This document shows, in pieces, positions 725-40,638 of a stretch of DNA of 64,000 nt. This stretch comes from Halorarius litoreus (GTDB lineage: Archaea > Halobacteriota > Halobacteria > Halobacteriales > Haloarculaceae). The translations under genes were made by a program, and so were the position numbers. The DNA is taken from NCBI RefSeq assembly GCF_024362405.1, contig NZ_CP101454.1, positions 3,472,001-3,536,000 of the forward strand. The letters are read 5' to 3'. Position 1 is the first letter of the stretch. Every line of letters starts with the position of its first letter. The notes under the pieces are model-generated. The model ran no database searches. It had not been told where the DNA came from and worked only from the letters and a program-made list of their open reading frames with translations.

Positions 725-740
725 TACTACAGTTCGAGTT
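725..740 (+). promoter_or_regulatory. TrmB-type site at the gad promoter
   Basis: TACT-N7-GAGTT, one mismatch to TACT-N7-GAGTA, the consensus known for Halobacterium salinarum TrmB. It overlaps the TTTACTA stretch (723-729), the best TATA candidate for a leaderless start at 753, and reaches toward the transcription start. In the other five copies in this window the element lies just upstream of the TATA box. A protein bound here would be expected to block the promoter (inference). Confidence 0.55.
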
Positions 741-752
741 AAAATGCAGCCC

Positions 753-1991
753 ATGACGAGGGACTACGCCGGGCTGCACGACCCGAACGCCGAGTACACG
801 ATGCGAGAACTATCGTCGGAGACAATGGGCGTTACGGCGAAGCGCGGCGGCGGGCGCGACGTCGAGATCACGGACGTCCAGACGACGATGGTCGACGGGA
901 ACTTCCCGTGGACGCTCGTGCGCGTCTACACCGACGCCGGCATCGTCGGCACCGGCGAAGCGTACTGGGGCGCGGGCGTCCCGGAACTCATCGAGCGCAT
1001 GAAGCCGTTCGTCGTCGGCGAGAACCCGCTCGACATCGACCGCCTCTACGAGCACCTCGTCCAGAAGATGTCAGGCGAGGGCTCGGTGGAAGGCGTCACC
1101 GTGACGGCCATCGCGGGCATCGAGATCGCCCTGCACGACCTCGCGGGCAAGATTCTGGAGGTGCCCGCCTACCAGCTCCTCGGCGGGAAGTATCGCGACG
1201 AGGTTCGCGTCTACTGTGACTGCCACACCGAGGACGAAGCCGACCCTGAAGCCTGCGCTGACGAGGCCGAGCGCGTCGTCGAGGACCTCGGCTACGACGC
1301 CCTGAAGTTCGACCTCGACGTCCCGAGCGGCCACGAGAAGGACCGCGCGAACCGGCATCTCCGACCCGGCGAGATTCGCCACAAGGCCGAAATCGTCGAG
1401 CAGGTCACCGAACGCGTGAAGGACCGCGCGGACGTGGCGTTCGACTGCCACTGGACGTTCTCTGGGGGCTCGGCCAAGCGACTGGCCGCCGCCATCGAGG
1501 ACTACGACGTGTGGTGGCTCGAAGACCCCATCCCGCCGGAGAACCTCGAGGTGCAGGAGGAGGTCACGAAGTCCACGCTCACGCCCATCACCGTCGGCGA
1601 GAACCGCTATCGTGTCACGGAGCTCCGCCGTCTCATCGAGAACCAGGCCGTCGACATCGTCGCACCCGACATGCCCAAGGTCGGTGGGATGCGCGAGACC
1701 CGGAAGATAGCCGACGTCGCCAACCAGTACTACGTGCCGGTGGCGATGCACAACGTCTCCTCACCCGTGGCGACGATGGCGAGCGCGCACGTCGGGACTG
1801 CCATCCCGAACTCGCTCGCCGTCGAGTACCACTCCTACGAACTCGGCTGGTGGGGCGACCTCGTCGAGGAGACGGTCATCGAGGACGGCTACATCACCAT
1901 CCCCGAGGAGCCGGGGCTCGGCGTGACGCTCGACATGGATACGGTCGAGGCGCACATGGTCGACGGCGAGACCCTCTTCGACGAGGCGTAA
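753..1991 (+). CDS. gad: D-gluconate dehydratase, enolase superfamily
   Basis: A 412-residue member of the mandelate racemase/muconate lactonizing branch of the enolase superfamily, most likely the gluconate dehydratase that makes 2-keto-3-deoxygluconate in the haloarchaeal semi-phosphorylative Entner-Doudoroff pathway. Metal-ligand positions are visible: Asp231 (AFDCHW), Glu257 (WLEDPIPPE) and Glu283 (GENRYR). Lys185 (LKFD), Asp306 (PDMPKVGG) and His333 (AMHNVSSP) are the likely catalytic residues. The next enzyme, KDG kinase, lies at 12.7 kb. Galactonate or another sugar acid is possible as substrate, but the neighbours favour gluconate. Start: ATG 753 lies about 28 nt after a TATA-like TTTACTA; an in-frame ATG at 744 is the alternative. 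A T-run at 2056-2062 could end the transcript. Confidence 0.85.
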   Translation: MTRDYAGLHDPNAEYTMRELSSETMGVTAKRGGGRDVEITDVQTTMVDGNFPWTLVRVYTDAGIVGTGEAYWGAGVPELIERMKPFVVGENPLDIDRLYEHLVQKMSGEGSVEGVTVTAIAGIEIALHDLAGKILEVPAYQLLGGKYRDEVRVYCDCHTEDEADPEACADEAERVVEDLGYDALKFDLDVPSGHEKDRANRHLRPGEIRHKAEIVEQVTERVKDRADVAFDCHWTFSGGSAKRLAAAIEDYDVWWLEDPIPPENLEVQEEVTKSTLTPITVGENRYRVTELRRLIENQAVDIVAPDMPKVGGMRETRKIADVANQYYVPVAMHNVSSPVATMASAHVGTAIPNSLAVEYHSYELGWWGDLVEETVIEDGYITIPEEPGLGVTLDMDTVEAHMVDGETLFDEA

Positions 1992-2055
1992 CGCCACCGA
2001 AACACGCCGCACAACTCCTTCGACGAAGCGAACCGAGACCGCAGTCCGGCCATAG

Positions 2056-2062
2056 CTTTTTA
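2056..2062 (+). terminator. T-rich candidate terminator after gad
   Basis: The run CTTTTTA stands in an otherwise GC-rich 196-nt gap between the convergent gad and GH15 genes. Archaeal transcription commonly ends at short U-tracts. The same bases resemble a TATA element, but no open reading frame of useful length follows. Confidence 0.35.
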
Positions 2063-2187
2063 TCAGAGACCGCGGCCAGACGCCGTGTGCTCGACTGAGT
2101 CACCACGGCACCGACGAGACGGGAGTCCGGCGCAGGGCCGTGGCGCGGAGGGCCGGCTGTTCGCCAGAATCGTGTAGCGGTCGCGCG

Positions 2188-5100
2188 CTACAGCGTGAGC
2201 CGCTCGACGGTCGTCCCGGCGACTTCGAGGTCAGTGTCGCTCGCGGCGGCGACGACGACCTCGTTCTCGCCGTACTCGATGCCCACGCGGACGACGAACT
2301 CGCCGTCCGTGGGCTCGACGTACACCGTCTCCGAGGGGCTCTTGATGGCGACGGCATCGCCGTCGGTGCGGACGGTGACGACGAGGTGGTCGCCCTCGTA
2401 GCCGGTGTCGACCCAGAGGTCGGGCCCGTCTGGGCGCTCGGTGTCGAGATACCGGTTTTTGACGAACGTGGGCGTCTCGACCGGCTCGCCCGCGTCGATG
2501 CCGTGCGCGAGCCGGACGAACTGCGCCATGCTCCACGCCAGGGGCGTCGCCGAGCCAGTTCCCTCACCGAACTCCCAGTTGAACTCGGTCGAGGACTCGC
2601 TGTCCCACACCTGCTCGGCGAGCATCCGTCCGGAGTTGGCGAAGCCGGCCATCGTCCGCAGCAGGTGGGCGGGCGCGTCGGGGCCATCGGTGGTACCCCG
2701 GAGGAGTTCGTACTCCGCGCGCTCGCCGGTGAAGATGGGCCAGAGTCGACCCTTCCCCGCACCGTCGATGGACCACGGCGCGCCGCGGTCCTCGCGCTCG
2801 AGTTCGCCGTAGCCGTCGCCGGTGTAGCGGTAAAACGCCGGGCCGTGGGGCGTCTCAACGCGGATGGTCTCGTCGACCACCGACACCGAGTGCTCGACGA
2901 CCGGGTCGTCTCCCGACTTGATGCCCAGTCGCGGCAGTTCGAGGAAGCCACCGTCGATGATCTCCCGCTCGTCGAGCGTCGGCCCCTCGTTCGCCAGCGT
3001 CCGCTCCGTTCCCGCCTCGGGGTTGCCGTCGCGCGTGATGCGGACGTAGTACGGCGGTTCTAGCTGGTCCGCACCGGTGTCCGTCGCCGTCCACTCCTCG
3101 ACACGGTCGGTCCAGTCGTCGGCGAGCCCCAGCCACGCGAGTGCGTCGCCCGGTTCGTCGTAGTCGAGCGCGAGCTTCCCTGCGCAGGCGAGGCCCGCGA
3201 TTTCGGCGGCGATCGACGACGGTGAGAATCCGGACTCCTCCTCCCACCGCTCCTGTGCGGTGGCGGGGCCGTTGCGCGCGACGTAGTCTGCCGACCGCCG
3301 GACGTTCTCGTAGGTGTAGTCAGCTTCCTCGAAGCCGATGCCGACCTCGGCGAGCTGGTAGGCCATCACCTGTGGGAACGAGATGTTGTCCATCTGTTCG
3401 CCACCCCACCGCGTCCGGCCGTGGAGGTAGGTGTTCTGCGGGATGAATCCGGTGTCGTCCTGCTGGTACTCGTAGATGTACGCCAGCGCATCGTGCGCAG
3501 TGGTGTGTTCGTCGACGGCCTGCAGGACGGTGAACACCTGATACAGGTCACGCGACCAGACGAAGTTGTAGCCGTACCCCTTCTGTCGGTCGGCGGGGAC
3601 GACCTCCCCCCACGGTACGGAGGGCGAGGCGATACCCGCCCCGAGGTACGTCTTGTCCTCGACGGCCCGGAGCGCCATCAGACAGCTCTTGTACTGGGCG
3701 GCGAGTTCGGGGTCGGTCGACACCGACTGGGGCAGCGGCTTGTCGTCGAGCCACCGCTCCCACGAGGCGTGATAGCCGCGCTGGACAGCCTCATAGCCGC
3801 GAGCGAGCGACCCTTCGGCCTCACCGAGCGCCCCGGCGGTGTCCGCATCACCGGCGAAGCCGAGGCCGAGCGTCGTGTCGAGCGACGACCCCGTGCCGAT
3901 GCGCCCGACCATGACGAGGTTGGTCTCGTCGGTCTCGGCCACGGGATCGGGTTTGACGCCGTCGGCGAACAGTTCGCGGAGCGCCGACGAGCCCGCGACA
4001 CCCACCGTCGCCCAGTCGAACCGCTCTTCGGCGGCCATCGCGAACGCGATACTGTACGGGTTCCCGTCGTCGTCGACGAGCATCGTGTCGTCGTTCGCGT
4101 CGAACGTTCCCGCGTCACGGGCCGCGAGATGGTACGCGCCCTCGGTGCCGAGCCGGAGCCCACGGTCGCGGTCACCGACGCTCGTCAGCGCAGTATCGGC
4201 GACCGCGTACAGCTCGTACTCGTTGTCGTCGAAGGCTTCGAACTGGACGCTCGCGAGCACGGCGTCGTGCGACGGGTCGGCGGCGTACTCCGCGGTGAGC
4301 TGCCACTCGTGGCCCTGTCCCTTCCCGGTCTCGGTGACGGTCTGACGGAACAGCAGCGCGTCGTCGGCGAGCGGCTCCACCTCACGTTCGACGGTGTCCG
4401 CGTGGTCGTCACGTCGGCTCTCGTTGTGCGTGCGCGCCGTGTACGTCGAGGTCTCGTCGGCGTCGACGACGAGGAAGTCGAGCGTCCGCAGGTTCATCAG
4501 GTCCACGCGCGGATAGCGGACCTCGGTCAGCGCACCGTCGGTGAGCGTGAACCAGACCTTCGAAGGCTCGGATGCGTCGTGGTCGGCCACGGTCCCGACG
4601 CCGTACTTCTCGGCCGTCGTCCATCGGGGCGTCGCCTCCGGACCTTCGGGAGACGTCACCGCTGGAAGCGCGTCGAGATCGTACAGCAGCGCGGTCGCGT
4701 GGAGTCGGAGGGCGTGCGACCACCCCAGCGGTGTCGCGCTGTCGAGCGTGCCGTCGTCGAACACCTGCTCGGCGAGGTGACCCGTGTTCGAGCAGAACGG
4801 GCCGTCGGGCGATAGCAGGTCGTAGAGTTCGCCCGCCCACGCCAGCATGTCGTCGGTGGCGCGGTCGTGGGCGTCGAACAGCGCCGCCGCCCGCGCCGCG
4901 GCCTCCGCACCCCACGCGGTCGAAACCGACCACACCTTCGGGCCCGCCTGGTCGCCCTGTCGCCAGTCGTCGCCCTCGAAGCGGACGAGTCCGGCGACCT
5001 CGGGTGACTGCCGATACAGGGCGTCGAACGTCGCCACGAGGTGCGACTCCAGGCGGTCGAGGTGGCCGTCGGAGAGTCCGTCGGCGGCGGCGTACGACTC

Positions 5101-6687
5101 GAACGCACTCACGAGCGCGAACGACGCCGAATCGAGCCGGTCGTCGCGGCGGTCACCGTCGAGTCGGAGCGCGTAGTGGTCGCCCGTCCAGAGCTCGTCG
5201 AGGCCGTTGAGCACCGCTCGCGCACCGTCGAGCGCGTTCTCACAGACAGCGTCGGGGAGCGGTGCGGCGGCGACCGTCGCGTACGCCTCGAGATACGTGG
5301 CCGCGGTGTGGACGAACCGACCGTCCATGTTCTCCCAGAGGTTCTGACAGCGTGCGGGAAGCCCGTCTTCCTCGAGGGTCTCGTCGAGCGCGCCGACGCC
5401 AGCCTCGATGGCGGAGACGACTTCGCCGCGGGTTGCCCCCCCGAGCAGGGTCGGGCGCTCGGTCACCAGTTCCGCGAGGAACGAGACGACCGTCGCCGTC
5501 TGGTCGGCCTGGTACTCGACGGAGTCGCGGCCCTCGACGCGCCCGTGTGCCCACCCCGGGGCGAGCGAGCCGTCGACGGCCCACGCCCGATGCGACCACG
5601 AGCCGTCGTCGGACTGTGTGTCGACGTAGAACTCGGCGCTCGCGAGGAGTTCGTCGTCGACATCGAAGCCGAGGCGGTCGCTCGCATCGAGGAGATAGCT
5701 CGCAGTCTCCGAGTCGTCGCGGAACCAGGTGTAGCCGTAGCCGCCGGAGCCGGCGAAGAAGGGGTCGTGTTCCGGCCCGGCGATGCGCGCGCCGGAGGGC
5801 GCTCGGAGGAGCGCGAGCGCACGCAGATCCGCCGTGACACTGTCCGGACGTGGCGTGTCGGCAGGCGCGTCGACGGCCACCTGTTCGCGGGCGATGTCGC
5901 GGAGGGCGTCGGGCGTGGTGTGCGTCGTCGCAGCGTTCCGGATGTCGGCGATGGCCTGCTCACGGGTCGTCTCGCGGTGATCAGAGAGCTGCGTGACGAA
6001 CGTGACGGTCGCGCCGCGACCCCCGCGTTCGAGCGGCGCGCTCACGACGACGTCGCCGCTCAGGTGGGTGTCCTCGTAGCGCTCCTGGGGGACGCGTCGC
6101 GGGAACTTCACTGGCTCGTCGTCGAGGATCTCGTCGAACCGTTCGGGCACCTGTCCGCGGACGTCGTCGATGCCGGTCGAGGCGGCGACGTAGTCGTGTT
6201 CGTCGCGGTGGAACACTTCGACGACGGAGCCGTCGTCGACCTCATGGATGAGCCGACCGACCTGCGTCTCGCGCCCCTCCGGCGCGAAGGTGAGGAAGGC
6301 CGTCAGCTTCGCGGCGTCGGGGACCTCACCGCGGAGTTCGACGTGTGTCACGTGCGCGCGGCCGAGCGTCAGGTCGTACTGGTGGACGGTGAACCGGCCG
6401 GCGTCGTACTCTGTCTCCACGAGCGTCGTGTCGGAGTAGTAGTGCTGGCGAACGGGATCGATGTCGTCGAACCAGCGAATGCCGTCGTCCGTCTCGATAC
6501 CGAACCGCGAGCGGTCGACGCCGTAGAGCCCGGAGAGCGCGGCCGAGTGGTCCCGGAAAGAGCCGTCTGGGTTCACGTAGACGAGCCGGTCACCGTAGCC
6601 GGAGAGGGAGCCGTCGACGGTCGGCGCCGTCCCCGGGAACGGTCCCCGGTCTCGCTTGTAATCGTTCAGCGCGGTGCGCAGTCGCAT
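2188..6687 (-). CDS. Tandem GH15 glucoamylase/glucodextranase-like protein, 1499 aa
   Basis: One polypeptide holds two GH15 units that should release glucose from non-reducing ends of alpha-glucans. The N-terminal unit (about 1-690) has a beta-rich leader and an (alpha/alpha)6 barrel starting at YGYTWFRD (317-324), with EQVFDDG plus SATPLGWSHA near 640-659. The second unit (about 690-1499) starts with a glucodextranase-type beta domain and has its own barrel motif GYGYNFVWSRD (1037-1047), a matching EQVWDSE plus SATPLAWSMA, and an extra C-terminal beta domain. Ordinary GH15 enzymes hold one barrel in roughly 450-1000 residues. There is no signal peptide, so it should act in the cytoplasm. Start: ATG at 6687 lies about 26 nt from the TATA at 6709-6717; a longer GTG start at 6738 is unlikely. 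A TrmB-type site lies upstream. Whether both barrels are active is unknown. Confidence 0.85.
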   Translation of the reverse strand: MRLRTALNDYKRDRGPFPGTAPTVDGSLSGYGDRLVYVNPDGSFRDHSAALSGLYGVDRSRFGIETDDGIRWFDDIDPVRQHYYSDTTLVETEYDAGRFTVHQYDLTLGRAHVTHVELRGEVPDAAKLTAFLTFAPEGRETQVGRLIHEVDDGSVVEVFHRDEHDYVAASTGIDDVRGQVPERFDEILDDEPVKFPRRVPQERYEDTHLSGDVVVSAPLERGGRGATVTFVTQLSDHRETTREQAIADIRNAATTHTTPDALRDIAREQVAVDAPADTPRPDSVTADLRALALLRAPSGARIAGPEHDPFFAGSGGYGYTWFRDDSETASYLLDASDRLGFDVDDELLASAEFYVDTQSDDGSWSHRAWAVDGSLAPGWAHGRVEGRDSVEYQADQTATVVSFLAELVTERPTLLGGATRGEVVSAIEAGVGALDETLEEDGLPARCQNLWENMDGRFVHTAATYLEAYATVAAAPLPDAVCENALDGARAVLNGLDELWTGDHYALRLDGDRRDDRLDSASFALVSAFESYAAADGLSDGHLDRLESHLVATFDALYRQSPEVAGLVRFEGDDWRQGDQAGPKVWSVSTAWGAEAAARAAALFDAHDRATDDMLAWAGELYDLLSPDGPFCSNTGHLAEQVFDDGTLDSATPLGWSHALRLHATALLYDLDALPAVTSPEGPEATPRWTTAEKYGVGTVADHDASEPSKVWFTLTDGALTEVRYPRVDLMNLRTLDFLVVDADETSTYTARTHNESRRDDHADTVEREVEPLADDALLFRQTVTETGKGQGHEWQLTAEYAADPSHDAVLASVQFEAFDDNEYELYAVADTALTSVGDRDRGLRLGTEGAYHLAARDAGTFDANDDTMLVDDDGNPYSIAFAMAAEERFDWATVGVAGSSALRELFADGVKPDPVAETDETNLVMVGRIGTGSSLDTTLGLGFAGDADTAGALGEAEGSLARGYEAVQRGYHASWERWLDDKPLPQSVSTDPELAAQYKSCLMALRAVEDKTYLGAGIASPSVPWGEVVPADRQKGYGYNFVWSRDLYQVFTVLQAVDEHTTAHDALAYIYEYQQDDTGFIPQNTYLHGRTRWGGEQMDNISFPQVMAYQLAEVGIGFEEADYTYENVRRSADYVARNGPATAQERWEEESGFSPSSIAAEIAGLACAGKLALDYDEPGDALAWLGLADDWTDRVEEWTATDTGADQLEPPYYVRITRDGNPEAGTERTLANEGPTLDEREIIDGGFLELPRLGIKSGDDPVVEHSVSVVDETIRVETPHGPAFYRYTGDGYGELEREDRGAPWSIDGAGKGRLWPIFTGERAEYELLRGTTDGPDAPAHLLRTMAGFANSGRMLAEQVWDSESSTEFNWEFGEGTGSATPLAWSMAQFVRLAHGIDAGEPVETPTFVKNRYLDTERPDGPDLWVDTGYEGDHLVVTVRTDGDAVAIKSPSETVYVEPTDGEFVVRVGIEYGENEVVVAAASDTDLEVAGTTVERLTL

Positions 6688-6708
6688 ACTGGGCCGAATG
6701 GGGCGAGC

Positions 6709-6717
6709 TATATAAAC
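6709..6717 (-). promoter_or_regulatory. TATA box of the GH15 gene
   Basis: GTTTATATA on the minus strand, centred about 26 nt before the ATG at 6687. This is the usual distance for a leaderless haloarchaeal transcript and it fixes the GH15 start. Confidence 0.7.
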
Positions 6718-6739
6718 GATGACGATGTTGGCAAACACT

Positions 6740-6755
6740 TACTCGACAATGAGTA
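6740..6755 (+). promoter_or_regulatory. TrmB-type site between GH15 and amylase genes (perfect match)
   Basis: tactcgacaatgagta matches TACT-N7-GAGTA exactly. It lies 33-48 nt before the amylase ATG, touching the upstream edge of its TATA-like AAAAATCATT (6755-6764), and about 23 nt upstream of the GH15 TATA box. One bound protein could therefore control both divergent glucan-degradation units. Confidence 0.75.
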
Positions 6756-6787
6756 AAAATCATTAGCCCGGGGGACACAGGGTCCGT

Positions 6788-8683
6788 ATGCACCATCCCG
6801 GACCCCCACGGTTCACCGCGGTCGGGAGCGCAGTCGAGCTGGCGCCGCGCGACCCCGATCCGGATGCGACGTATCGCTGGCGAGTCGTCTCGCGTCCATC
6901 GGAGAGTCGCGTCGACGTCGGCGACGAGGCCGTCGAGGAGTTCGTCCCCGACGTCCCCGGCCGCTACCGTGTCGAACTCGACGCGCCCGACGGCACGCAC
7001 ACACTAACAGTCCGCGTGTTCCCTGCCGATAAGGCTATCGCCGGTATCGGAGGGGCGAGCGGCTCGGGCATCAGCGGCATGTCGGGAAGCAGTCCGTCGG
7101 TCTCTGACTTCGCCAGCGGCTCGGGCTCAGCCCGCGGGAGTGGTGGCGGCGACGGTGGGCGCCCCCGCGTCCGGCTGGACGGTGGCCGCGAGGGCGACAC
7201 GGTCGCACTCCACGCTCAGGCGACGCCGCACCCCGACTCCGAGGCGAGCCCGGCTGACCTCGACGTGGAGTTCTACGTCGACGACCGCGACGGGTTCAAC
7301 CGTACGGCCCTGACGCCGCGCGGCCACGATGCCACCCTCCCGGTTCCGGACGCGCCGGTTCGTATCCATGCTGTCGCCGTTGGCGAGCAGTACAGCGTGG
7401 CCGACGCCGTCCGCGTCCACCCTGACGGCTCGGTCGAACGCCTCTACCAGCCCCCAGCGTGGGCCGAGGACGCCACCATCTACGAGATTTACGTGCGAGG
7501 GTTCACCGACGACCACTCCTTCGCGGGTATCAAGGCCAAACTCGACTACCTCGCCGAGTTCGGCGTCGACACGCTGTGGCTCACGCCCGTCCTCCAGAAC
7601 GACGACGCCCCGCACGGCTACAACATCACGGACTTCTTCGGCGTCGCCGACGACCTCGGGACCCGCGAGGAGTACGAGGCACTCGTCGCGGCCGCCCACG
7701 ACCGTGGCATGAAGGTGCTGTTCGACCTCGTGCTCAACCATTCGGCACGCCAACACCCGTACTTCGAGGACGCCTACGGAAACCCCGATTCCCCCTACTA
7801 CGACTGGTACGAGTGGCAGGACTCCGGTGAGCCGGGCACGTACTTCGACTGGGAGAAGATCGCGAACTTCGACTACAAATCGCTCGAGGTCAGACGACAC
7901 CTGCTCGACGCGGTCGACGAGTGGGCGCCGCTCGTCGACGGGTTCAGATGCGACATGGCGTGGGCCGTCCCCGCCGCGTTCTGGAAGGAGATCCGCGACC
8001 GCGTGAAGGACCACGACTCGGAGTTCTTACTCCTCGACGAGACCGTCCCCTACGTCGCGGACTTCCACGAGGGGATGTTCGACGTCCACTTCGACACGAC
8101 GACGTACTTCACCCTCCGAGAGATCGGCCGCGGCCACGCCGACGCCGATGCGCTGTACGACGCGGTCGAACAGCGGGCGCGCGTAGGTTTCCCCGACGCC
8201 GCCGGCTTCATGCTCTACATCGAGAACCACGACGAACTCCGGTACGTCGACGAGTGCGGCCGCCCCGAAGTCGAGGCCGCCGCGGGCGCGCTGTTCACGC
8301 TCCCCGGCGTCCCGATGGTCTACTCCGGCCAGGAGTTCGGCGAACGCCTCCGTCGGGGCCACGTCGACTGGGACGCCGCCGACGAGGAGCTCCGCGCGCA
8401 CTACAAGGCGCTCCTGGAGACCAACGACGAGACGCCCGCGCTCGCACGTGACGCCGACTTCGCGCCCGTCGACTACGAAGCTGCGTCGCCGGGCGTCACC
8501 GCGTACGCCCGCGACACCGGCTCGGAGCGGGTCGTCGTCGTGCTCAACTTCGGGCCCGAGACCGAGACGGTCGGACTGCCCGGTGAGCGCGTCGACGCGA
8601 CCGACCTCGTCTCCGGCGAGTCGGTCGCAGCCGAGGGCGGCGTCGACGTCGAGAGCGTGGTGGTCCTGCAGGCCGAGCGATGA
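6788..8683 (+). CDS. Intracellular GH13 alpha-amylase / cyclomaltodextrinase-like
   Basis: A 631-residue GH13 enzyme predicted to hydrolyse alpha-1,4 glucans or maltodextrins. Residues 1-85 look like an Ig/PKD-like beta domain. Residues 85-125 are a Gly/Ser-rich linker, then comes a second beta region and the catalytic barrel from about 226. All GH13 signatures are present: region I DLVLNHS (313-319), region II GFRCDMAW with nucleophile Asp389, region III LLLDETV with acid/base Glu418, and region IV YIENHDE with Asp482. No signal peptide is seen, so the substrate must be imported. The stop overlaps the next gene as ATGA, implying translational coupling. The promoter carries a perfect TrmB-type element. 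Neopullulanase or trehalose-forming specificity cannot be excluded. Confidence 0.85.
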   Translation: MHHPGPPRFTAVGSAVELAPRDPDPDATYRWRVVSRPSESRVDVGDEAVEEFVPDVPGRYRVELDAPDGTHTLTVRVFPADKAIAGIGGASGSGISGMSGSSPSVSDFASGSGSARGSGGGDGGRPRVRLDGGREGDTVALHAQATPHPDSEASPADLDVEFYVDDRDGFNRTALTPRGHDATLPVPDAPVRIHAVAVGEQYSVADAVRVHPDGSVERLYQPPAWAEDATIYEIYVRGFTDDHSFAGIKAKLDYLAEFGVDTLWLTPVLQNDDAPHGYNITDFFGVADDLGTREEYEALVAAAHDRGMKVLFDLVLNHSARQHPYFEDAYGNPDSPYYDWYEWQDSGEPGTYFDWEKIANFDYKSLEVRRHLLDAVDEWAPLVDGFRCDMAWAVPAAFWKEIRDRVKDHDSEFLLLDETVPYVADFHEGMFDVHFDTTTYFTLREIGRGHADADALYDAVEQRARVGFPDAAGFMLYIENHDELRYVDECGRPEVEAAAGALFTLPGVPMVYSGQEFGERLRRGHVDWDAADEELRAHYKALLETNDETPALARDADFAPVDYEAASPGVTAYARDTGSERVVVVLNFGPETETVGLPGERVDATDLVSGESVAAEGGVDVESVVVLQAER

Positions 8684-11046: not shown

Positions 11047-11135
11047 CGGTGGCATCGCTGTTCTTCTGTGCGTCGTGGGGTCCACTGACACCCAGTAGAA
11101 TGCAGCGCCAGGGTGACGAGTCCGAGATGTCGGGG

Positions 11136-12623: not shown

Positions 12624-12698
12624 ACCCGCTCCACGTAGCCCCACGGTTTCAACGGTGCGGTCAGGCGACAGCCTCAAGGGTGCGAGCAGAGCGTGAGG

Positions 12699-12706: not shown

Positions 12707-12728
12707 GCGGGCCGCCGGAGTCACGCGC

Positions 12729-16016: not shown

Positions 16017-17120
16017 TCACCGCTGGAGGACGACCGGGCGCGGGAGCGTCAGGTCGAAGCCGACCGCGCTCGCCGCTCGTTCGGGCCAGTCACCCGTCCG
16101 GGTGAGCGGCTCGACACCGTCGTCGGTGACGAGCACCGTGTCCTCGCTCTTCGCGCCCTGCACCGTCGGATTCCACGCGTACGCCATCGGGAGATGGACG
16201 CGCTCGGTACTGTCGGGCGTGGCGATCCACTCGCGGCCAGTGAACCCGGCAGCACCCCCCTGGTGATGTTCGCGCCACTCGCCGTCGAAGCCGACCGCCG
16301 TGTAGGCGTCCTGCATCGCGTGGAACACCTCGTCGGCGGTGCCTCCCCGTCGGCCGACCGACCGAGTTGCCGCCAGCGCCGTCGCTTCGACGCCCGTGGC
16401 AGCGGCGTGGCGCTCGGTGAGCCACGGGGGCGCGTCGAACGCCACGGTCCGGGTACAGCTCGCGTACAGGCCCCCGCGGCTCGCGGTGACAGAGACTAGC
16501 GCGTAGTCGCCGAGTTCAGTCTCGGTTGGCGTGTAGTGCCGGTACTGCTGGGCACGCCTCGCGCCACCGACGAGTGCGACGGGCGTGTCGATGCCGCGGT
16601 CGGCGAGTCGACCCCGGAGGTCGGCGGCGACGGCTCGCTCGGTGACGTCGGGCGCGGCGTCCCGGCAGACAGCCTCGACGGCGGTGGCGACCTCGCGCCC
16701 GAGTTCACGGTACTGCTCGACGTCCCGTTCCGTGAGCGGCTGGCGAAGGCTGCTGGCGTTGACCGGGGCGAAGCCGTCGACCGGGAAGTCCGCGGCGGCG
16801 GGCGTCGGCGACCGTTCGGCGACCGCCTCAGCGAGCGACGACTCGTGCCACGGAAACGTCTCGATATCGACGTGGCTGGGCAGTTCTTCGGCAGCGAGCC
16901 GAAGTCCTTCGATGTCGTTCGTGACGACCGTGAGCGACCCGTCGTAGCCGACTGCAGCGACGCCAACGTCGCCCGCGCGGTCCACCACGTTGTTCCCGCC
17001 GGTGAGCCACGCGAAGCTGTCGGGGCGTGCGAACCAGACCGCCTCCAGCCCACGGGCGGCTAGCAGCGCGTCGAGCCGCGATGCCCGCTGGGCCGGGAGC
17101 GTCTCTATCGCAGTCGCCAT
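16017..17120 (-). CDS. M24-fold (pita-bread) protein lacking metal ligands
   Basis: A 367-residue protein with the two-domain layout of M24 aminopeptidases: a creatinase-type N-terminal domain (about 1-130) and a pita-bread C-terminal domain. The catalytic metal site is not intact. In the conserved Asp-x10-Asp segment before TRT, both aspartates are serine here (Ser210 and Ser221 in YALVSVTASRGGLYASCTRT). The Glu of the EPG motif is Asn (WNPTVQG). The His region (HHQGGAAGF, 285-293) and the last Glu (KSEDTVLVT, Glu326) remain. Creatinase is the precedent for a metal-free relative with hydrolase activity. A catabolic C-N hydrolase or a binding-only protein are both possible. It shares a 56-nt divergent promoter region, with a TrmB-type site, with the GapN-like gene. 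Confidence 0.75.
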   Translation of the reverse strand: MATAIETLPAQRASRLDALLAARGLEAVWFARPDSFAWLTGGNNVVDRAGDVGVAAVGYDGSLTVVTNDIEGLRLAAEELPSHVDIETFPWHESSLAEAVAERSPTPAAADFPVDGFAPVNASSLRQPLTERDVEQYRELGREVATAVEAVCRDAAPDVTERAVAADLRGRLADRGIDTPVALVGGARRAQQYRHYTPTETELGDYALVSVTASRGGLYASCTRTVAFDAPPWLTERHAAATGVEATALAATRSVGRRGGTADEVFHAMQDAYTAVGFDGEWREHHQGGAAGFTGREWIATPDSTERVHLPMAYAWNPTVQGAKSEDTVLVTDDGVEPLTRTGDWPERAASAVGFDLTLPRPVVLQR

Positions 17121-17127
17121 CAATATT

Positions 17128-17143
17128 TATTCTGTAGTGAGTA
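17128..17143 (+). promoter_or_regulatory. TrmB-type site between M24 gene and gapN-like gene
   Basis: TATT-N7-GAGTA, one mismatch to the TACT-N7-GAGTA consensus. It lies 34-49 nt before the ATG at 17177, just upstream of a TATA-like CTTAATG (17148-17154). Seen from the minus-strand M24 gene (ATG at 17120) it covers the core promoter between TATA and start. The same bound protein could therefore act oppositely on the two genes (inference). Confidence 0.6.
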
Positions 17144-17176
17144 AACTTCTTAATGCTGGCGGTCCGAATTAGAGCT

Positions 17177-25340: not shown

Positions 25341-25362
25341 ATTTACAACAGTCGTTGTAAAT
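25341..25362. promoter_or_regulatory. Palindromic operator at the sugar ABC promoter
   Basis: ATTTACAAC-AGTC-GTTGTAAAT, a perfect inverted repeat with 9-bp arms and a 4-base spacer. It lies 44-65 nt before the binding-protein ATG and about 10 nt upstream of its TATA-like element. It is flanked by a second inverted pair, AGGTGG (25332-25337) and CCACCT (25371-25376). Its sequence differs from the TACT-N7-GAGTA element seen at the other promoters. It is probably the local operator of the transporter. Confidence 0.65.
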
Positions 25363-25434: not shown

Positions 25435-26541
25435 TCAGGGTCGTCGGAACAGGGGTTGGTCCGCGACAACATTCCGTCCGCCGATCTCGAGCACTGTGAT
25501 GCGGGTCGCCTCGACGTCTTCGAGCATCGCTCCCCAGCCGCCGACCGTCACGGTCTCGTCCTCGTCTGTCAGAACGGTCATCGTCACCTGCCCCGAGAGT
25601 CGCTCGACGGGGTCTTCCGAGCCGGTGATGCCGCTGAACGCCGCCTGCTGGACGACCCCCGTCGTCGAGATCTCGTCCCCGGTGTCGACCTCGAACCCCT
25701 CGACGTGGACCCGGGGAGTCGCCCCGTCGTCGACGAGCGGCTGTAGATCCCGAACGCACTGCCGGATGTCGACGTAGCCGACGGGGAACGAGTCGCCGTA
25801 GTCGCTGTAGACGGTCTCCCAGTGTTCCCACAGGCAGGTGAGGAAGTACCAGTGGAACACGAACGTGTGCGTGCGGTCGTTCACCAGCACGCCGTACTGG
25901 TCGTGGGAGTTGGGGTGGTGCGAGAAGCAGGTCTTCTGCCGGTCGACGAGCGCGACGAACGGGGCGGGAAGCCGCCGATGGCGAACCTCGAGACACGCGC
26001 CCTCGAATTGGTCTGTGGGCAGCTCCGTGTCGTCGCCATCGGTGTGGATCGAGATGCGCGTCGAGACGCCGCGGTCGTGGGCTGCCGCGAGCTTCGGCCG
26101 CAATCGAGAGAAGTCCTCGGGCGTCAGCGACAGCTGAATCTGGTACTCGGCGTCCTCGATGAACGTCTCGGCCCGCTCGATGACGGTCTGGAACTGCGTG
26201 ACGATGCTCGTCCGGTTGCTCTCGAGTTCGGGTTGCTCCCACCGCTCCTCGACCTCTTCGGCCGCGGTTTCGAACCGGGTGGCCCGGTCACGGAGGTCCG
26301 ACAGCACCATCGCCGGGCTGTGTGCACGAGCGTGGAGCGACCCCATCTCGTAGGTCTCGATGTAGCCGTGCGACTCCAGCCCGTCGAGCACGTCGTAGAT
26401 GCGCGGTTTCGGCACGTCGCTCGCCTCGGCAATCTCGGTCGCGGAGGCCGCACCGAGGTCGAGCAGCGCCACGTAGGCCGCGGCCTGATACGGGGAGAGC
26501 CCTGCTGTCTCGAGCGTATTCGACAGCTCCGCGGTATCCAT
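25435..26541 (-). CDS. trmB: TrmB-family sugar-sensing transcriptional regulator
   Basis: A 368-residue regulator. Residues about 10-70 form a winged helix (LSPYQAAAYVALLDLGAASATEIAEASDV, then PKPRIYDVLDGLESHGYIE). A helical linker follows (about 80-115), then a sugar-binding TrmB C-terminal domain from about 115 to the end. In archaea these proteins bind sugars and repress or activate glycolytic, gluconeogenic and transporter genes. It sits in tandem upstream of the ABC operon with its own promoter: TTTAGATA (minus strand, near 26565) about 27 nt before the ATG. It may be the factor that reads the six TACT-N7-GAGTA elements in this window, the palindrome at the ABC promoter, or both. If it is only a local regulator, the global TrmB lies elsewhere. 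Confidence 0.85.
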   Translation of the reverse strand: MDTAELSNTLETAGLSPYQAAAYVALLDLGAASATEIAEASDVPKPRIYDVLDGLESHGYIETYEMGSLHARAHSPAMVLSDLRDRATRFETAAEEVEERWEQPELESNRTSIVTQFQTVIERAETFIEDAEYQIQLSLTPEDFSRLRPKLAAAHDRGVSTRISIHTDGDDTELPTDQFEGACLEVRHRRLPAPFVALVDRQKTCFSHHPNSHDQYGVLVNDRTHTFVFHWYFLTCLWEHWETVYSDYGDSFPVGYVDIRQCVRDLQPLVDDGATPRVHVEGFEVDTGDEISTTGVVQQAAFSGITGSEDPVERLSGQVTMTVLTDEDETVTVGGWGAMLEDVEATRITVLEIGGRNVVADQPLFRRP

Positions 26542-27640: not shown

Positions 27641-28537
27641 ATGTCGTCGCTCGACGCCGTCCGTCGCCCCGAACACACCGGGGAGATGCGCTGCTGGCCG
27701 TGTACCGTCGTGAATCTCCTCGTCGTGGGGGCGCTCGCACTCGTCGTCGGCCGCCGCCGCAAGGGGGTCGGGCTCGCCGTCGCCGCGGTCGGCCTCACGC
27801 TCGTCGCGCTCCGGGGATACGTCGTTCCCTACACCCCGCAGTTCGCGCCGAAACTCGTTGCGGCGTCGCCGCTGCCAGACGAGTGGTTCCACATGGAATC
27901 GGCAACCGCGACCCCACCTGTCGACGCGGTTGCCGACGAAGCGGAAGCCGGAGACGACACACCCGACCTCGACCCGGACGCCGAGCGCGACGCGGAGACG
28001 GGGCTCGCGGGCGACGAGCCCGACGGCGAGGAGCTGCTGGCGACGCTGGTCGAGGTGGGAGCAGTCACGCTCGACGGCGAGGACGTGCGGCTCGACCCCG
28101 AGTTCGAGACCGCCTGGTACGACGCCATGGAACCGCTCGCCGACCTCGACACCGAGGCACTCACCGAGGAAGTGCTCTCGGTGGCGCACGCGAAGGACGG
28201 CTTCGTCTTCGACGGCGACATGGACGACCACGAGTGGGTGGTGCTCACCGACGGCAGCGGGAGCTTCCAGGGACGCACGTGGCTCTCGCGCCCCGTCGCA
28301 ATCGCCGAGACTGCTGCGGTGCATGCCCTCGACGAGTACGTGACGGAAGCGGCGACCCGGCGTGCTGCGGCCGGGCCGCTCCGGATGTTCCTACAGACCT
28401 GTCCCGACTGTGGGACAGAGCTCCGCGAGGAGTCCGCCGCGTCGTGCTGTGGCGGCTACAACGGCCCGTCGGAGGTTCCCCCGATGGTGCTCGCTTGCCC
28501 CGACTGCCGCCAGCGGCTCTACACCTTCGACGACTAG
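27641..28537 (+). CDS. Unrecognised membrane protein with C-terminal zinc ribbon
   Basis: A 298-residue protein that I do not recognise. Two hydrophobic segments near residues 24-60 ([17 protein letters not shown] and [17 protein letters not shown]) flank a short basic loop and anchor it in the membrane. An acidic linker (about 90-130) leads to a soluble domain. The C-terminus has paired cysteines, [17 protein letters not shown] then [13 protein letters not shown], consistent with a zinc ribbon. Cys residues also precede the first helix (MRCWPC). The ATG at 27641 was chosen because upstream in-frame sequence overlaps the aldo/keto reductase promoter. Its stop interlocks with that of mgsA at a CTAG. 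Confidence 0.7.
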
Positions 28538-28905
28538 CTGCCCGAGCGCTCGCCCGCGAGCAGGTGTTCTGCGCTCGCGAGATTCGTCGCGAGCGGCACG
28601 TTGTGAACGTCACAGATTCTGAGCAGCGCTGAGATGTCGGGCTCGTGCGGCTGGGCGGTCAGCGGGTCGCGCAGGAAGACGATGGCGTCACACGTGCCGT
28701 CGGCGACCTCGGCGCCGATCTGGAGGTCACCGCCGTGCGGGCCCGACTGCTTGCGCTCGACGTCGAGTCCGGTCGCCTCCTGCAATCGGTGTCCAGTCGT
28801 CCCCGTCGCGAGCAGTTCGAAGCCGGCGAGTGTCTCGCGATGGCGGTCGGCGAACGCGACGAGGTCGTCTTTCTTCTCGTCGTGAGCGATGAGTGCGAGT
28901 CGCAT
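28534..28905 (-). CDS. mgsA: Methylglyoxal synthase
   Basis: A 123-residue single-domain enzyme that converts DHAP to methylglyoxal and phosphate. Family motifs are present: [15 protein letters not shown] at the N-terminus, [11 protein letters not shown], the phosphate loop [14 protein letters not shown], and [33 protein letters not shown]. The length fits the family (bacterial enzymes are about 150). Glycerol catabolism genes that make DHAP lie 2-9 kb to the right. It is divergent from the ROK kinase gene, with a TrmB-type near-match in the shared promoter, and its stop overlaps that of the zinc-ribbon protein. Confidence 0.92.
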
Positions 28906-28947
28906 GAAACCTCTGCGTCGACCGGACAGGAAAGCGTTCGGGCAGAG

Positions 28948-28963
28948 TACTCGGACGCGAGTG
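28948..28963 (+). promoter_or_regulatory. TrmB-type site between mgsA and the ROK kinase
   Basis: tactcggacgcgagtg: TACT-N7-GAGTG, one mismatch to consensus. It lies 41-56 nt before the kinase ATG at 29004, just upstream of a TATA-like GTTAAG (28974-28979), the same geometry as at the amylase, gapN-like, uspA and ppc promoters. It could also affect mgsA (ATG at 28905) on the other strand. Confidence 0.5.
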
Positions 28964-29003
28964 AATCTATGCTGTTAAGTGGTGGCCGGTCCGTGCCCCT
29001 GGT

Positions 29004-29972
29004 ATGTACGCCGGTGTGGACCTCGGGGCCACGAACATCCGGGCGGTCGTCGCCGACAACGACGGCACCATCGTCGGCAACGACCGCCGGGGAACGCCCA
29101 CCGGGCCGACCGGCATCGCAGTGACCGAGGCGGTGTTGACCGCCCTGCGAACGGCCTGCGAGGACGCGCACGCGGACCCCGCCGACATCCGCGCGGTCGG
29201 TATCGCCTCCATCGGGCCGCTCGACCTCGCGGTGGGTGCGGTCGAGAACCCCGCGAACCTCCCCGACGCCATCGACTCGATTCCGCTCACCGGCCCCATC
29301 GAGAACCTCGTCGACTCCGAGCAGGTGTACCTCCACAACGACACCAACGCGGGCGTCATCGGCGAGCGGTTCCACAGCGACCGCAACCCCGACGACATGG
29401 CGTATCTCACCATCTCCTCAGGGATCGGTGCCGGCGTCTGTGTCGACGGCAACGTCCTCTCGGGGTGGGACGGCAACGCCGGCGAAGTGGGCCACATGAC
29501 GCTCGACCCCGAGGGCATCATGCGCTGTGGCTGTGGCAAGGACGGCCACTGGGAGGCGTACTGCTCGGGGAACAACATCCCTCGGTACGCCGAGTATCTC
29601 CACGACGACGACCCGGTCGACACCGCCCTCCCGCTCGACGACTCCGACTTCTCCGCCGCCGACGTGTTCGAGTACGCCGACCACGACGAGTTCGCGGCCC
29701 ACGTCGTCGGCCAGCTCGCGCACTGGAACGCGATGGGCGTCGCGAACCTCGTGCACGCGTACGCACCGCTCGTCATCTACGTCGGCGGCGCCGTCGCGCT
29801 CCACAACACCGACCAGGTCCTCGACCCCATCCGGGCGAAGCTCCCCGACATGGTGATGGCGAACGTCCCAGACGTCCAGTTGACGACGATGGGCGACGAC
29901 GTGGTCGTCAGGGGCGCGCTCGCGAGCGCGATGACCGGTGGGACCGGCGACCGCTCGCGAATGCGACGATGA
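29004..29972 (+). CDS. ROK-family sugar kinase (glucokinase-like)
   Basis: A 322-residue ROK kinase. The N-terminal ATP loop is YAGVDLGATNIRAVV. LHNDTNAGVIGERF carries the catalytic Asp. The zinc-binding ROK signature is GEVGHMTLDPEGIMRCGCGKDGHWEAYCSG, with its His and Cys ligands. Glucose is the default guess, though haloarchaea mainly oxidise unphosphorylated glucose, so N-acetylhexosamine or another sugar is possible. The C-terminal codons (GGTGDRSRMRR) are duplicated in part just after the stop. The start MYAGVDLGATN is unambiguous and leaderless. Confidence 0.85.
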   Translation: MYAGVDLGATNIRAVVADNDGTIVGNDRRGTPTGPTGIAVTEAVLTALRTACEDAHADPADIRAVGIASIGPLDLAVGAVENPANLPDAIDSIPLTGPIENLVDSEQVYLHNDTNAGVIGERFHSDRNPDDMAYLTISSGIGAGVCVDGNVLSGWDGNAGEVGHMTLDPEGIMRCGCGKDGHWEAYCSGNNIPRYAEYLHDDDPVDTALPLDDSDFSAADVFEYADHDEFAAHVVGQLAHWNAMGVANLVHAYAPLVIYVGGAVALHNTDQVLDPIRAKLPDMVMANVPDVQLTTMGDDVVVRGALASAMTGGTGDRSRMRR

Positions 29973-30024
29973 GCGGCTCCGGCGGGCCCACCGCTGGAGG
30001 GACCGGCGACCGCTCGCGAATGCG
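29940..30024 (+). repeat. Direct repeat duplicating the 3' end of the ROK kinase gene
   Basis: The 26-base stretch at 29940-29965 recurs without change at 29999-30024, 59 bases later. The first copy encodes the kinase tail TGDRSRM; the second lies after the stop codon. This looks like a small recent tandem duplication in which the first copy carries the functional stop. Confidence 0.75.
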
Positions 30025-30046
30025 GCGGTAGCCTCCTGCGCTGAAC

Positions 30047-32731: not shown

Positions 32732-32963
32732 CGAAAGTCACCTGACCGACCACGAATTCTTTACTGGTGGTCTAGTCTCGCTCGGCACATCTACGGACAG
32801 TCAGTTAACTCTTGGGTGACGTGTGACCGAATTGTCCCACAGAGCCACCAGATTCGGCAGTTTGTATCGAGACGGGTCGAGACAGGCCACCACAAATCGT
32901 TACTGCTGGTCGTCGGGCGACGATACATCCAAGTGGGAGCGCGCCGCAGTTCGGGACGACCGA
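32732..32963. promoter_or_regulatory. glpK-glpA divergent intergenic region (232 nt)
   Basis: It separates the divergent glycerol kinase and glycerol-3-phosphate dehydrogenase genes and must hold both promoters. A TATA-like GTAAAGAAT for glpK lies near 32758. A short palindrome AGTTAACT is at 32803-32810, and a GATACAT element near 32924 is the best candidate for glpA. No convincing match to the TACT-N7-GAGTA element is present, so glycerol uptake genes seem to be under a different regulator. Confidence 0.5.
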
Positions 32964-37229: not shown

Positions 37230-37308
37230 CGGGATAGCCGACAGAGAATCCCTAATCGACGAACGCGCGACGCCAGCGGGTCGGCGAGTTCGGTCCATCG
37301 CGTCTCAC

Positions 37309-37362
37309 GGCTCGCTCCGCTCGCCGTTCGACTGCTTGTTGTTGGTGGGCTCGCTCCGCTCG
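37309..37362. repeat. 15-bp direct repeat GGCTCGCTCCGCTCG
   Basis: Two identical copies at 37309-37323 and 37348-37362 lie between the convergent glpC and uspA genes. Such GC-rich repeats are common in haloarchaeal intergenic regions and may affect transcript ends. I assign no specific function. Confidence 0.55.
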
Positions 37363-37368
37363 GCCACC

Positions 37369-37827
37369 CTACTCCGCCCGGACGAACGTGACCGGACACG
37401 GCGCGTTGAGCATGACCTCCTGTGCCGTCGAGCCGAAGACCGCCTTCCCGGTCGGCGAGCGCTTGCGGCCGCCGACGAGCACGAGGTCGGCCTCCAGTTC
37501 CTCCGCGAGTTCGACGATGGCCTTCCCTTTGCCGTCCTCGTCTCCGATCTTCCCGTGCCACGTGAAGTCGACGTCGGCATCCGAGAGCGCGTCACCGAGC
37601 TCGCGGATGGTGACGTGGCGTTTCGCGACTACGTCCGGCGTCACCTCGGCGTCCTTGTCGAACTCCAGTTTCCGCCGGAGGTCGTCGTACGAGTCCTTCG
37701 TGAACACGTGCGCGAGTTTCACGGTCGCCCCGGCGGGGCCGGCGATGTCGATGGCGGTTCGTGCGAGCGGCGCGATGCGGTCTTCGTCCCCCTCTCCAAC
37801 GGCGACGAGTACGGTTTCGAGACTCAT
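37369..37827 (-). CDS. Universal stress protein, UspA family
   Basis: A 152-residue single-domain Usp protein of the ATP-binding subtype. VLVAVGEGDEDRIAPLA begins strand 1, and the C-terminal VGGRKRSPTGKAVFGSTAQEVML matches the nucleotide-binding G-x2-G-x9-G-S/T pattern, ending PCPVTFV. It starts at MSLETVLVAV, about 27 nt from a clear TATA (37850-37858). A perfect TrmB-type element (read on the minus strand) lies just upstream of that TATA, so its expression probably follows sugar status. Its exact role is unknown, as for most Usp proteins. Confidence 0.9.
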   Translation of the reverse strand: MSLETVLVAVGEGDEDRIAPLARTAIDIAGPAGATVKLAHVFTKDSYDDLRRKLEFDKDAEVTPDVVAKRHVTIRELGDALSDADVDFTWHGKIGDEDGKGKAIVELAEELEADLVLVGGRKRSPTGKAVFGSTAQEVMLNAPCPVTFVRAE

Positions 37828-37849
37828 AACCGGCAATACTCGCCCACCC

Positions 37850-37858
37850 TATTTAAAT
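37850..37858 (-). promoter_or_regulatory. TATA box of uspA
   Basis: TATTTAAAT (ATTTAAATA on the minus strand), centred 27 nt before the uspA ATG. It is a textbook leaderless promoter, lying 11 nt from the adjacent TrmB-type element. Confidence 0.7.
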
Positions 37859-37868
37859 CTTCAAGATT

Positions 37869-37884
37869 TACTCATCTTGTAGTA
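37869..37884 (-). promoter_or_regulatory. TrmB-type site upstream of uspA (perfect match)
   Basis: On the minus strand the bases read tactacaagatgagta, an exact TACT-N7-GAGTA. The site lies 42-57 nt before the uspA ATG and immediately upstream of its TATA box. It is also just beyond the 3' end of ppc, so uspA is its only plausible target. Confidence 0.75.
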
Positions 37885-37889
37885 AAAAC

Positions 37890-40586
37890 TTATCCCGTAT
37901 TCTTCATCCCGGCGGCGATGCCCTTCACCGTGAGCCGGAGCGTCCGGACCTCGTCGTCGCTCAGGTTCGCCCGGTCGAGCAGTTTCATCTGCAGGTGGTT
38001 GAGCGGGTCGACGTACGGGTTCCGGCGTTCGAGGTTCTCCTCCAGCCAGTCGCGGCGCAGGAGGCGGTCGGACTCCGTGATCGAGAGCACGAGGTCGCGG
38101 GCTCGTTCGTACTCCTCGGTGAGTCGCGGGAAGATGCGCTCGCGGAGGTCGGGTTCCGCGAGGTCCGCGTAGCCGGCGGCGATGTCGAGATCGGTGCGGG
38201 CGAGCGACAGCGCCGCGTTGTCGAGCATCGTGCGGAAGAACGGCCACTCGGCGTACATCTCGCGCAGGGTGGCGAGGTCACCTCCCTCGTCGAGGTAGGC
38301 GTCGAGTCCCGAGGCCAGCGAGTACCAGCCGGGGATGATACACCGTGCCTGGGTCCACGAGAACACCCACGGAATCGCCCGGAGGTCCTCGACGGACCGC
38401 TCGCCGCTACGGGAGGCCGGTCGGGAGCCGAGGTTGAGGTCCTCGATGACCGTGATGGGCGTCGCCTGCTCGAAGTAGGCGACGAACCCGTCGGTTTCGA
38501 GGAGGTCTCGGTAAGCGGTCCGGGCGGCGGGTGCGGCCGTCTCCATCGCCGCCCGCCAGTCGTCAGGGATGGTCGTGTCCGCCGTCGTCATCGCCCGGTA
38601 GCGCGCACGAAGCTGCGCGTTGAGCATCTGTTCGAGGTTCCGCTCGGCGATGCGGGGGTTGGCGTACTTCTCCGCGATGGCCTCCCCCTGCTCGGTGAAC
38701 TTGACCTGCCCGGTCACGGTCTCCGCGGGGAGCGCGAGCAGTGCGTCGTTCATCGGTCCCCCACCCCGGGAGATAGAGCCACCACGACCGTGGAACAGTC
38801 GGAGGTCGACGCCGAAGTCGTCACAGATGGTCGCGAGTCGCTTCTGGTTGCGGTAGAGCGACCACTGCGCCGCGAGATAGCCGTTCTCCTTGTTCGAGTC
38901 CGAGTAGCCCAGCATGATCTCCTGGGTCCCGTTCCGAGCTTCGACCGCCGCCGCGTACGCCTCGTTCTCGAACAGCGTCCCCATGATGCGGCGAGCCCCC
39001 GAGAGGGCGTACTCGGTTTCGAGGAGGGGCACGACGTCGAGCCCACAGTAGCCGGGGAGGTCAGCCACGTCGGCCTGGTCGGCGAGGAACAGCACCTCCA
39101 GGACGTGCGACGGCTCCTCGCACATCGAGATGCAGTAGGTGTCGATGGCGTCGACACCGTACTCGCGTTGCCACTCGGCGGTCGAGTCGAACAGGTCGAG
39201 TACCTTCGTCGCCGTCTCGGAGAGCCCCTCGTGAGCCGCGATGTCGATGACCGGCTCGTCGTCGAGGACGGCCTCGGTCAGCAGGTCGACGCGCTCGGCT
39301 TCGTCGAGGGATTCGTAGTCGATTCCCTCACGGTCGAGCGCCTCGGTGACCGCCTGCGTGTGGTTCTGTTGGTGGTCGCGGAGATCGAGGCTGGCCAGCG
39401 AGAAGCCGAACGTCGATACCTGTCGGCGGATGGGGTCGACGTGTGCGTCCGCGACTGCCCCGGCCCGGTTCTCGCGGAGGTCCGCCGCGATAGCATCGAG
39501 GTCCGCGAGCAGCGCCGTGTGATCGCCGTAACCGCCCGGCCGGACGCTGTCGACGCGCGCGACCCGTTCGCGCATCAGCTTCAGCAGTTGCCGGTAGGGT
39601 TCGTTCGGGTAGCGCTGTTCGGCCTCGTCGGCGACTGCGGGCAGCGCCTCGCCGTGGACACGCAGGCGCTCGTCCACTTCCTCACCCACATCGACGCGAG
39701 TGGCGTCCTGGCTCAGCACACCCGAGAGGCGCTTCAGCGCCTGGCGGTACTTCGAAAGAACGACCGACCGTTGGCGGTCGAGCGTCTCCGCCGTTATCTC
39801 GGGGGTGACGTGGGGGTTGCCGTCGCGGTCGCTGCCGGCCCACGACCGGAACTCGAACAGTTTGGGGACGTCGACATCGCCGTACGCCTCGCCGAGTTCG
39901 GCCTCGAGTTCGTCGTAGACGGCACCCACGACATCGAACAGCGTGTTCTCGAGGTACCACTGGACGTTGAGCGCCTCGTCGGTCACCTCGGGGCGGCGAT
40001 CGCGGAGCTGTGGCGTCTGCCAGAGGCTCGTCACCTCGGATTCGAGCCGGCGTTCGACCTGCGCGGTCTCGTCGTCGGTGAGCCGGCGCTCGTCGAGCGT
40101 CTCGATGTGGTCCGCCACGGACCGGAGTTTCGCCTTCACGGTCTTCCGACGGGCCTCGGTCGGGTGCGCGGTGAACGTGGGCTCGATGAGCACGTCGTTG
40201 AGGACGGCTTCGACCTGGGCGGCGTCGGCGTCCGCCTCGACCAGTGACTCGACGGCTGCGGCGATGCTGTCAGCGATCGTGCCGGCCTGCTTGCCCTCCC
40301 GGACCGACCGGACGCGCTCGCGCTCTTCGGCGAGGTTGACGAGTTCGAAGTAGGTGGTGAACGCTCGGGCCACCGCCCCCTCGAGCTCGGTCGAGATGTC
40401 CGCGAGTTCGGCGTCGAGCGTCCCCCGTGCACCCCCGCGTCGGTCCTCGATGGCTGCCTGCCGAACGCTCTCGACGGTTTCGAACGCCTCGTCGGTCGAC
40501 TGCTCGGCGACCACGTCACCGAGCAGCGCGCCGAGCTCCCGGACGTCCTGTTCGACGTCCCTGTTGTGCAACGGCGTGTCACTCAT
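37890..40586 (-). CDS. ppc: Phosphoenolpyruvate carboxylase
   Basis: An 898-residue bacterial-type PEP carboxylase making oxaloacetate from PEP and bicarbonate, near the usual 880-930. Signatures are FTAHPTEARRKTVKAKLR with the catalytic His, SWAGSDRDGNPHVT, the glycine-rich LFHGRGGSISRGGGP, GYSDSNKENGYLAAQW, and the C-terminal LRLTVKGIAAGMKNTG. The N-terminal MSDTPLHNRDVEQDVRELGALLG is reasonable and leaderless (TATA-like AAATACTTAG at 40611-40620). A perfect TrmB-type element lies just upstream, so this anaplerotic step is probably sugar-regulated. It is divergent from fumC. Confidence 0.97.
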   Translation of the reverse strand: MSDTPLHNRDVEQDVRELGALLGDVVAEQSTDEAFETVESVRQAAIEDRRGGARGTLDAELADISTELEGAVARAFTTYFELVNLAEERERVRSVREGKQAGTIADSIAAAVESLVEADADAAQVEAVLNDVLIEPTFTAHPTEARRKTVKAKLRSVADHIETLDERRLTDDETAQVERRLESEVTSLWQTPQLRDRRPEVTDEALNVQWYLENTLFDVVGAVYDELEAELGEAYGDVDVPKLFEFRSWAGSDRDGNPHVTPEITAETLDRQRSVVLSKYRQALKRLSGVLSQDATRVDVGEEVDERLRVHGEALPAVADEAEQRYPNEPYRQLLKLMRERVARVDSVRPGGYGDHTALLADLDAIAADLRENRAGAVADAHVDPIRRQVSTFGFSLASLDLRDHQQNHTQAVTEALDREGIDYESLDEAERVDLLTEAVLDDEPVIDIAAHEGLSETATKVLDLFDSTAEWQREYGVDAIDTYCISMCEEPSHVLEVLFLADQADVADLPGYCGLDVVPLLETEYALSGARRIMGTLFENEAYAAAVEARNGTQEIMLGYSDSNKENGYLAAQWSLYRNQKRLATICDDFGVDLRLFHGRGGSISRGGGPMNDALLALPAETVTGQVKFTEQGEAIAEKYANPRIAERNLEQMLNAQLRARYRAMTTADTTIPDDWRAAMETAAPAARTAYRDLLETDGFVAYFEQATPITVIEDLNLGSRPASRSGERSVEDLRAIPWVFSWTQARCIIPGWYSLASGLDAYLDEGGDLATLREMYAEWPFFRTMLDNAALSLARTDLDIAAGYADLAEPDLRERIFPRLTEEYERARDLVLSITESDRLLRRDWLEENLERRNPYVDPLNHLQMKLLDRANLSDDEVRTLRLTVKGIAAGMKNTG

Positions 40587-40622
40587 ACTCGTACGAGAGT
40601 GCCAGGCATCCTAAGTATTTAC

Positions 40623-40638
40623 TACTCGTGTTCGAGTA
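40623..40638 (+). promoter_or_regulatory. TrmB-type site upstream of ppc (perfect match)
   Basis: tactcgtgttcgagta, an exact TACT-N7-GAGTA, 37-52 nt before the ppc ATG and directly upstream of its TATA-like element. The divergent fumC start is 96 nt away with its own TATA near 40704, so ppc is the likely target. Confidence 0.75.

Follow-up and report, generated by a model that had tools for sequence, protein, structure and literature searches.

The six TACT-N7-GAGTA elements in a 64-kb stretch of the Halorarius litoreus genome (4.17 Mb; the stretch, G000:C1:3472001-3536000, is called the window) are very probably operators of the canonical TrmB encoded in the gdh-gfcR-trmB cluster before the window, as predicted from their sequence. 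All six copies described in an earlier note were recovered where it had placed them. These short mirror-image DNA elements comprise three perfect copies (6740-6755 and 40623-40638, both strands; 37869-37884, minus strand) and three with one mismatch (at 725, 17128, and 28948). The consensus is indeed the published TrmB motif, TACT-N7-8-GAGTA (PMC4158304; PMC3794607). The window carries gad (enolase superfamily), GH15, alpha-amylase, GHL5, 4-alpha-glucanotransferase, KDG kinase, gapN-like and pyruvate kinase genes, as well as a sugar ABC transporter, an mgsA-like gene, a ROK kinase, glpK, glpABC, uspA, ppc, and fumarase. The NCBIfam scores of gad, gapN, and the ROK kinase fall under the equivalog cutoffs, so these names are given by similarity.

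Table 1. Predicted TrmB operators and one further palindrome in the window, with neighboring genes
Element	Position	Strand	Sequence	Neighboring genes	Site center to ATG	Matrix rank	Matrix score	Remark
gad	724..741	+	TTACTACAGTTCGAGTTA	gad (gluconate-dehydratase-like), 753-1991 +	-20.5	4	21.0	on TATA position
GH15/alpha-amylase	6739..6756	.	TTACTCGACAATGAGTAA	GH15 glucodextranase-like, 2188-6687 -; alpha-amylase, 6788-8683 + (divergent; Pfam)	-60.5 (GH15); -40.5 (amylase)	1	23.9	exact palindrome
gapN-like	17127..17144	+	TTATTCTGTAGTGAGTAA	gapN-like aldehyde dehydrogenase, 17177-18607 +, then pyruvate kinase, 18657-20405; M24 peptidase, 16017-17120 - (divergent)	-41.5	2	23.2	
ROK/mgsA-like	28947..28964	.	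GTACTCGGACGCGAGTGA	ROK glucokinase-like, 29004-29972 +; mgsA-like, 28534-28905 - (divergent)	-48.5 (ROK); -50.5 (mgsA)	6	16.0	weakest of six
uspA	37868..37885	-	TTACTACAAGATGAGTAA	uspA, 37369-37827 -	-49.5	3	21.6	
ppc	40622..40639	-		ppc (PEP carboxylase), 37890-40586 -	-44.5	5	20.2	exact palindromic core
Separate palindrome	25341..25362	.	ATTTACAACAGTCGTTGTAAAT	precedes sugar ABC transporter binding protein, 23783-25297 -			11.5	

The canonical trmB gene (G000:C1:3463766-3464809; L041:11763-12815) lies outside the window, about 7 kb before its start and directly after gfcR. Its product scored 619 bits with NF047392 (cutoff, 500). The adjoining GfcR is also a clear equivalog (NF045507; 378 bits, with a cutoff of 300), and the glucose dehydrogenase gene gdh stands upstream of gfcR. 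The cluster (L041:11763-14558, approximately 5 to 8 kb before the window) joins both known haloarchaeal sugar regulators, and this adjacency recurs in several genera. Its promoter carries a TrmB-like site at about -41. A weaker site (L041:16245-16262; score of 15.2) precedes, by about 53 nt, the likely start of an aldolase gene of the DHDPS family, possibly encoding a KDPG aldolase. The TrmB regulon proposed in the earlier note is well supported, but as predicted from these two sites it extends beyond the window. In addition, a site-like element (L052:1501-1518; score of 19.1) precedes a third, shorter TrmB-family gene in the genome.

Throughout the order, the motif accompanies canonical TrmB rather than GfcR. 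We compared the distributions of the motif, canonical TrmB, and GfcR in 147 genomes, with statistics calculated for 130 of them (some incomplete genomes were left out). Among GfcR-bearing genomes, the motif-to-control ratio was 1.28 with TrmB (103 genomes) and 0.38 without it (8 genomes) (P = 8e-5 [by a Mann-Whitney test]); genomes of the same branch do not count as independent observations, and the TrmB-lacking genomes span at least four genera. The direction was the same in all six families holding both TrmB-bearing and TrmB-lacking genomes. At the gapII promoter, a site with up to three mismatches occurred at -64 to -71 in 19 of 20 TrmB-bearing genomes and in none of the six TrmB-lacking ones. 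The sole exception among the 20 is H. litoreus itself, whose gapII promoter (L155) has no site at the position conserved elsewhere. A gad site with up to two mismatches was present in 10/19 TrmB-bearing genomes, plus nine named loci, and in 0/5 TrmB-lacking genomes. Sites are also conserved in other genomes at gdh (-41) and at usp promoters (those in L057 and L059 carry the motif), and the -41/-42 spacing of the gapN site is kept in five other loci. The class 1 fructose-bisphosphatase family (PF00316) had no matches in 30 haloarchaeal genomes.

This comparison bears on the possibility that the sites are bound by GfcR, a protein with an HTH domain and a phosphoribosyltransferase fold that activates glucose and fructose catabolism and would here act as an activator in the presence of sugar. 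The proximity of its gene to trmB fits such a role, as does the fact that most window sites precede the TATA position of a catabolic gene. Haloferax GfcR activates the GAPDH I and pyruvate kinase genes and reportedly also activates gad. However, most TrmB-lacking genomes still have GfcR, which indicates that GfcR alone is insufficient to keep the motif. The eight such genomes showed no motif excess, and their gapII (0/6) and gad (0/4) promoters lacked the motif. The motif is moreover the published TrmB motif and, in about a dozen loci, is present in the promoter of trmB itself, almost always at -41 to -43. No DNA motif for GfcR was found in the literature searched. On the genome comparison, we mostly rejected the idea that GfcR reads the motif and regard this explanation as improbable.

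The earlier note had cited the TrmB-family gene within the window (25435-26541, minus strand) as support, but this gene is not the canonical haloarchaeal trmB. With NF047392, its product scored only 164 bits, under the cutoff of 500, and it is 27% identical to canonical TrmB, which marks it as a paralogue by sequence. Binding of the six sites by this paralogue has some appeal, as the gene lies inside the locus and its product retains the TrmB DNA-binding and effector domains, with a recognition region resembling that of the canonical protein. Against this, the presence of the motif tracks canonical TrmB across genomes, and the adjoining transporter promoter carries a different palindrome, ATTTACAACAGTCGTTGTAAAT (Table 1), a candidate operator of the paralogue. 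We consider it quite unlikely that the paralogue is the main reader of the sites, although the similar DNA-binding region means that it could share sites with canonical TrmB. TACAAC...GTAGT elements akin to ATTTACAACAGTCGTTGTAAAT precede the ABC transporter binding-protein gene in Haladaptatus and Halorussus.

To return to the six predicted TrmB sites, the number of exact copies in the window far exceeds expectation. We counted five strand hits of the exact motif, against 0.05 expected from dinucleotide shuffles, and 0 of 100 shuffles reached five. The rate of one chance match per 260 kb given previously is correct for equal base composition; in GC-rich DNA such matches are less frequent. We then scanned the window with a weight matrix built from 56 sites of other haloarchaea (gapII, gad, gdh, gapN, and trmB promoters; own genome excluded). 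The six sites took ranks 1 to 6, with scores of 16.0 to 23.9; as the training set holds orthologues of gad and gapN, it is for amylase, ROK, uspA, and ppc that the test is most independent. The next-best match (13.1) was in coding DNA, and the best scores in 60 simulated windows averaged 12.1, with a maximum of 17.3. The ROK site falls inside this simulated range, which makes it the most doubtful of the six. As a whole, the six-site set contradicts chance in this independent test. Coding DNA holds many one-mismatch matches, and Met-Ser-Lys start codons (ATGAGTAAR) mimic half of the motif, yet chance or base composition is a scarcely credible source of the six sites: as a set they score above shuffles and simulated windows, and those at gad, gapN, and usp have equivalents in the same places in other species.

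The remaining one-mismatch matches in the window were in coding sequence, except for 40586-40601, a second copy overlapping the ppc start codon (matrix score of 9.5), which is possibly due to chance. With up to two mismatches allowed, the extended motif was absent from every other promoter of the 64-kb window, which agrees with the earlier claim that sites are absent upstream of window genes outside carbon metabolism. The whole-genome scan suggested in that note, done here by pattern search (the matrix scan covered the window), yielded 13 exact places, 3 of them inside the window, which is 1.5% of the genome. At up to one mismatch, the extended motif was found in 13 places, 5 inside the window. 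The eight beyond it were in coding DNA, at start codons, or in intergenic DNA without a recognized carbon metabolism gene. Strong matches at 419005 and 1615516 were rejected as start-codon coincidences. Judged by these pattern hits, comparable promoter sites beyond the window are few.

Next, we considered site position relative to the promoter. Across 926 genes, an AT-rich zone lies at -35 to -25 from the ATG, as expected for leaderless transcripts with the BRE and TATA box there; TATA and BRE positions are assumed from leaderless starts. Five of the six site centers lie 40.5 to 49.5 nt from an ATG, in line with the 40 to 50 nt stated previously, with gad as the exception. The earlier description of the sites as just upstream of the TATA box conceals different arrangements: the site at gad coincides with the TATA position, those at -41 extend into the BRE, and in relatives the gapII sites stand at -64 to -71. 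In many TrmB-bearing genomes the gad site is located near -20, where it covers the TATA position (exceptions are at -47 to -57), whereas those of gapN, gdh, trmB, and amylase are found near -41. Work on Haloarcula hispanica showed that gapII is activated and an MFS transporter repressed by TrmB; in repressed genes, according to the authors, the motif overlaps with the BRE (PMC10817205). The site of this transporter is at -21.5, like that of gad. Another Haloarcula gene, a usp whose site is at -54.5, likewise goes up in the TrmB deletion, and the activated Haloarcula rubrerythrin/gdhB promoter had no strong matrix match. From the Haloarcula positions and effects, we predict that gad is repressed by TrmB when glucose is absent. 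Repression is also predicted, more tentatively, at the -41 sites (gapN, amylase, and gdh).

In the proposed mechanism, canonical TrmB would bind the sites without glucose and leave them with glucose, and a single glucose signal would control the whole locus. The sites would mark the steps by which the semi-phosphorylative Entner-Doudoroff route is entered and left (gdh, gad, and gapN-pyk), together with starch and glucan hydrolases, the glucokinase-like ROK kinase, ppc, and uspA. At gad, TrmB on the TATA position would block initiation in the absence of glucose; at gapN, amylase, and gdh, TrmB at -41 would reach the BRE. Some observations sit less easily with the TrmB reading: several TrmB-bearing genomes have no gad site, the ppc site is without general conservation in orthologues from other genera, and the organism's own gapII has no site.

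We tentatively suggest, at somewhat less than even confidence, that saccharolytic haloarchaea share a position code, with repression at about -20 (gad), the BRE edge at about -41 (gapN, gdh, amylase, and trmB), and activation at about -65 (gapII). Such a code would cover most Entner-Doudoroff and glucan degradation genes in this lineage, so that TrmB would directly repress sugar catabolism, unlike in the Haloarcula model, and it may control GfcR through gdh-gfcR-trmB. Haloarchaeal TrmB, known mainly as an activator of gluconeogenesis, is likely in many species to exert direct control over sugar catabolism as well. The positions at which its sites recur suggest a rule, open to experiment, by which a single archaeal regulator could serve as both activator and repressor, and the linkage of TrmB and GfcR in one gene cluster bears on the division of work between the two sugar regulators.

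The system is of a known kind. TrmB of Halobacterium salinarum (VNG1451C) shares the motif and regulator family, and its site position relative to the promoter is linked to activation or repression, as is predicted here. Halobacterium uses no sugars for energy, whereas in H. litoreus the sites precede clustered catabolic genes (amylase, gad, gapN-pyk, and the glucokinase-like gene). Binding without glucose and release with glucose have been published for both Halobacterium and Haloarcula; we infer the same binding in H. litoreus. In H. hispanica (HAH_1548), chromatin immunoprecipitation sequencing placed TrmB at gdh, gapII, and two usp genes, and TrmB was reported to exert no direct repression of glycolytic enzymes (PMC10817205). 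There, gad is not among the 15 TrmB peaks and gapII is bound, whereas here gad, gapN-pyk, amylase, and ppc have strong sites and the gapII site looks lost. GfcR of Haloferax volcanii has overlapping sugar catabolism targets but belongs to a different protein family, and the motif excess does not follow it where TrmB is missing. In Thermococcales, TrmBL1/Tgr is likewise a single sugar-sensing regulator with palindromic operators whose position decides activation or repression, although the TGM motif differs (TATCAC-N5-GTGATA). H. litoreus thus appears to use a familiar type of regulator with a target set that differs from that of the Haloarcula model.
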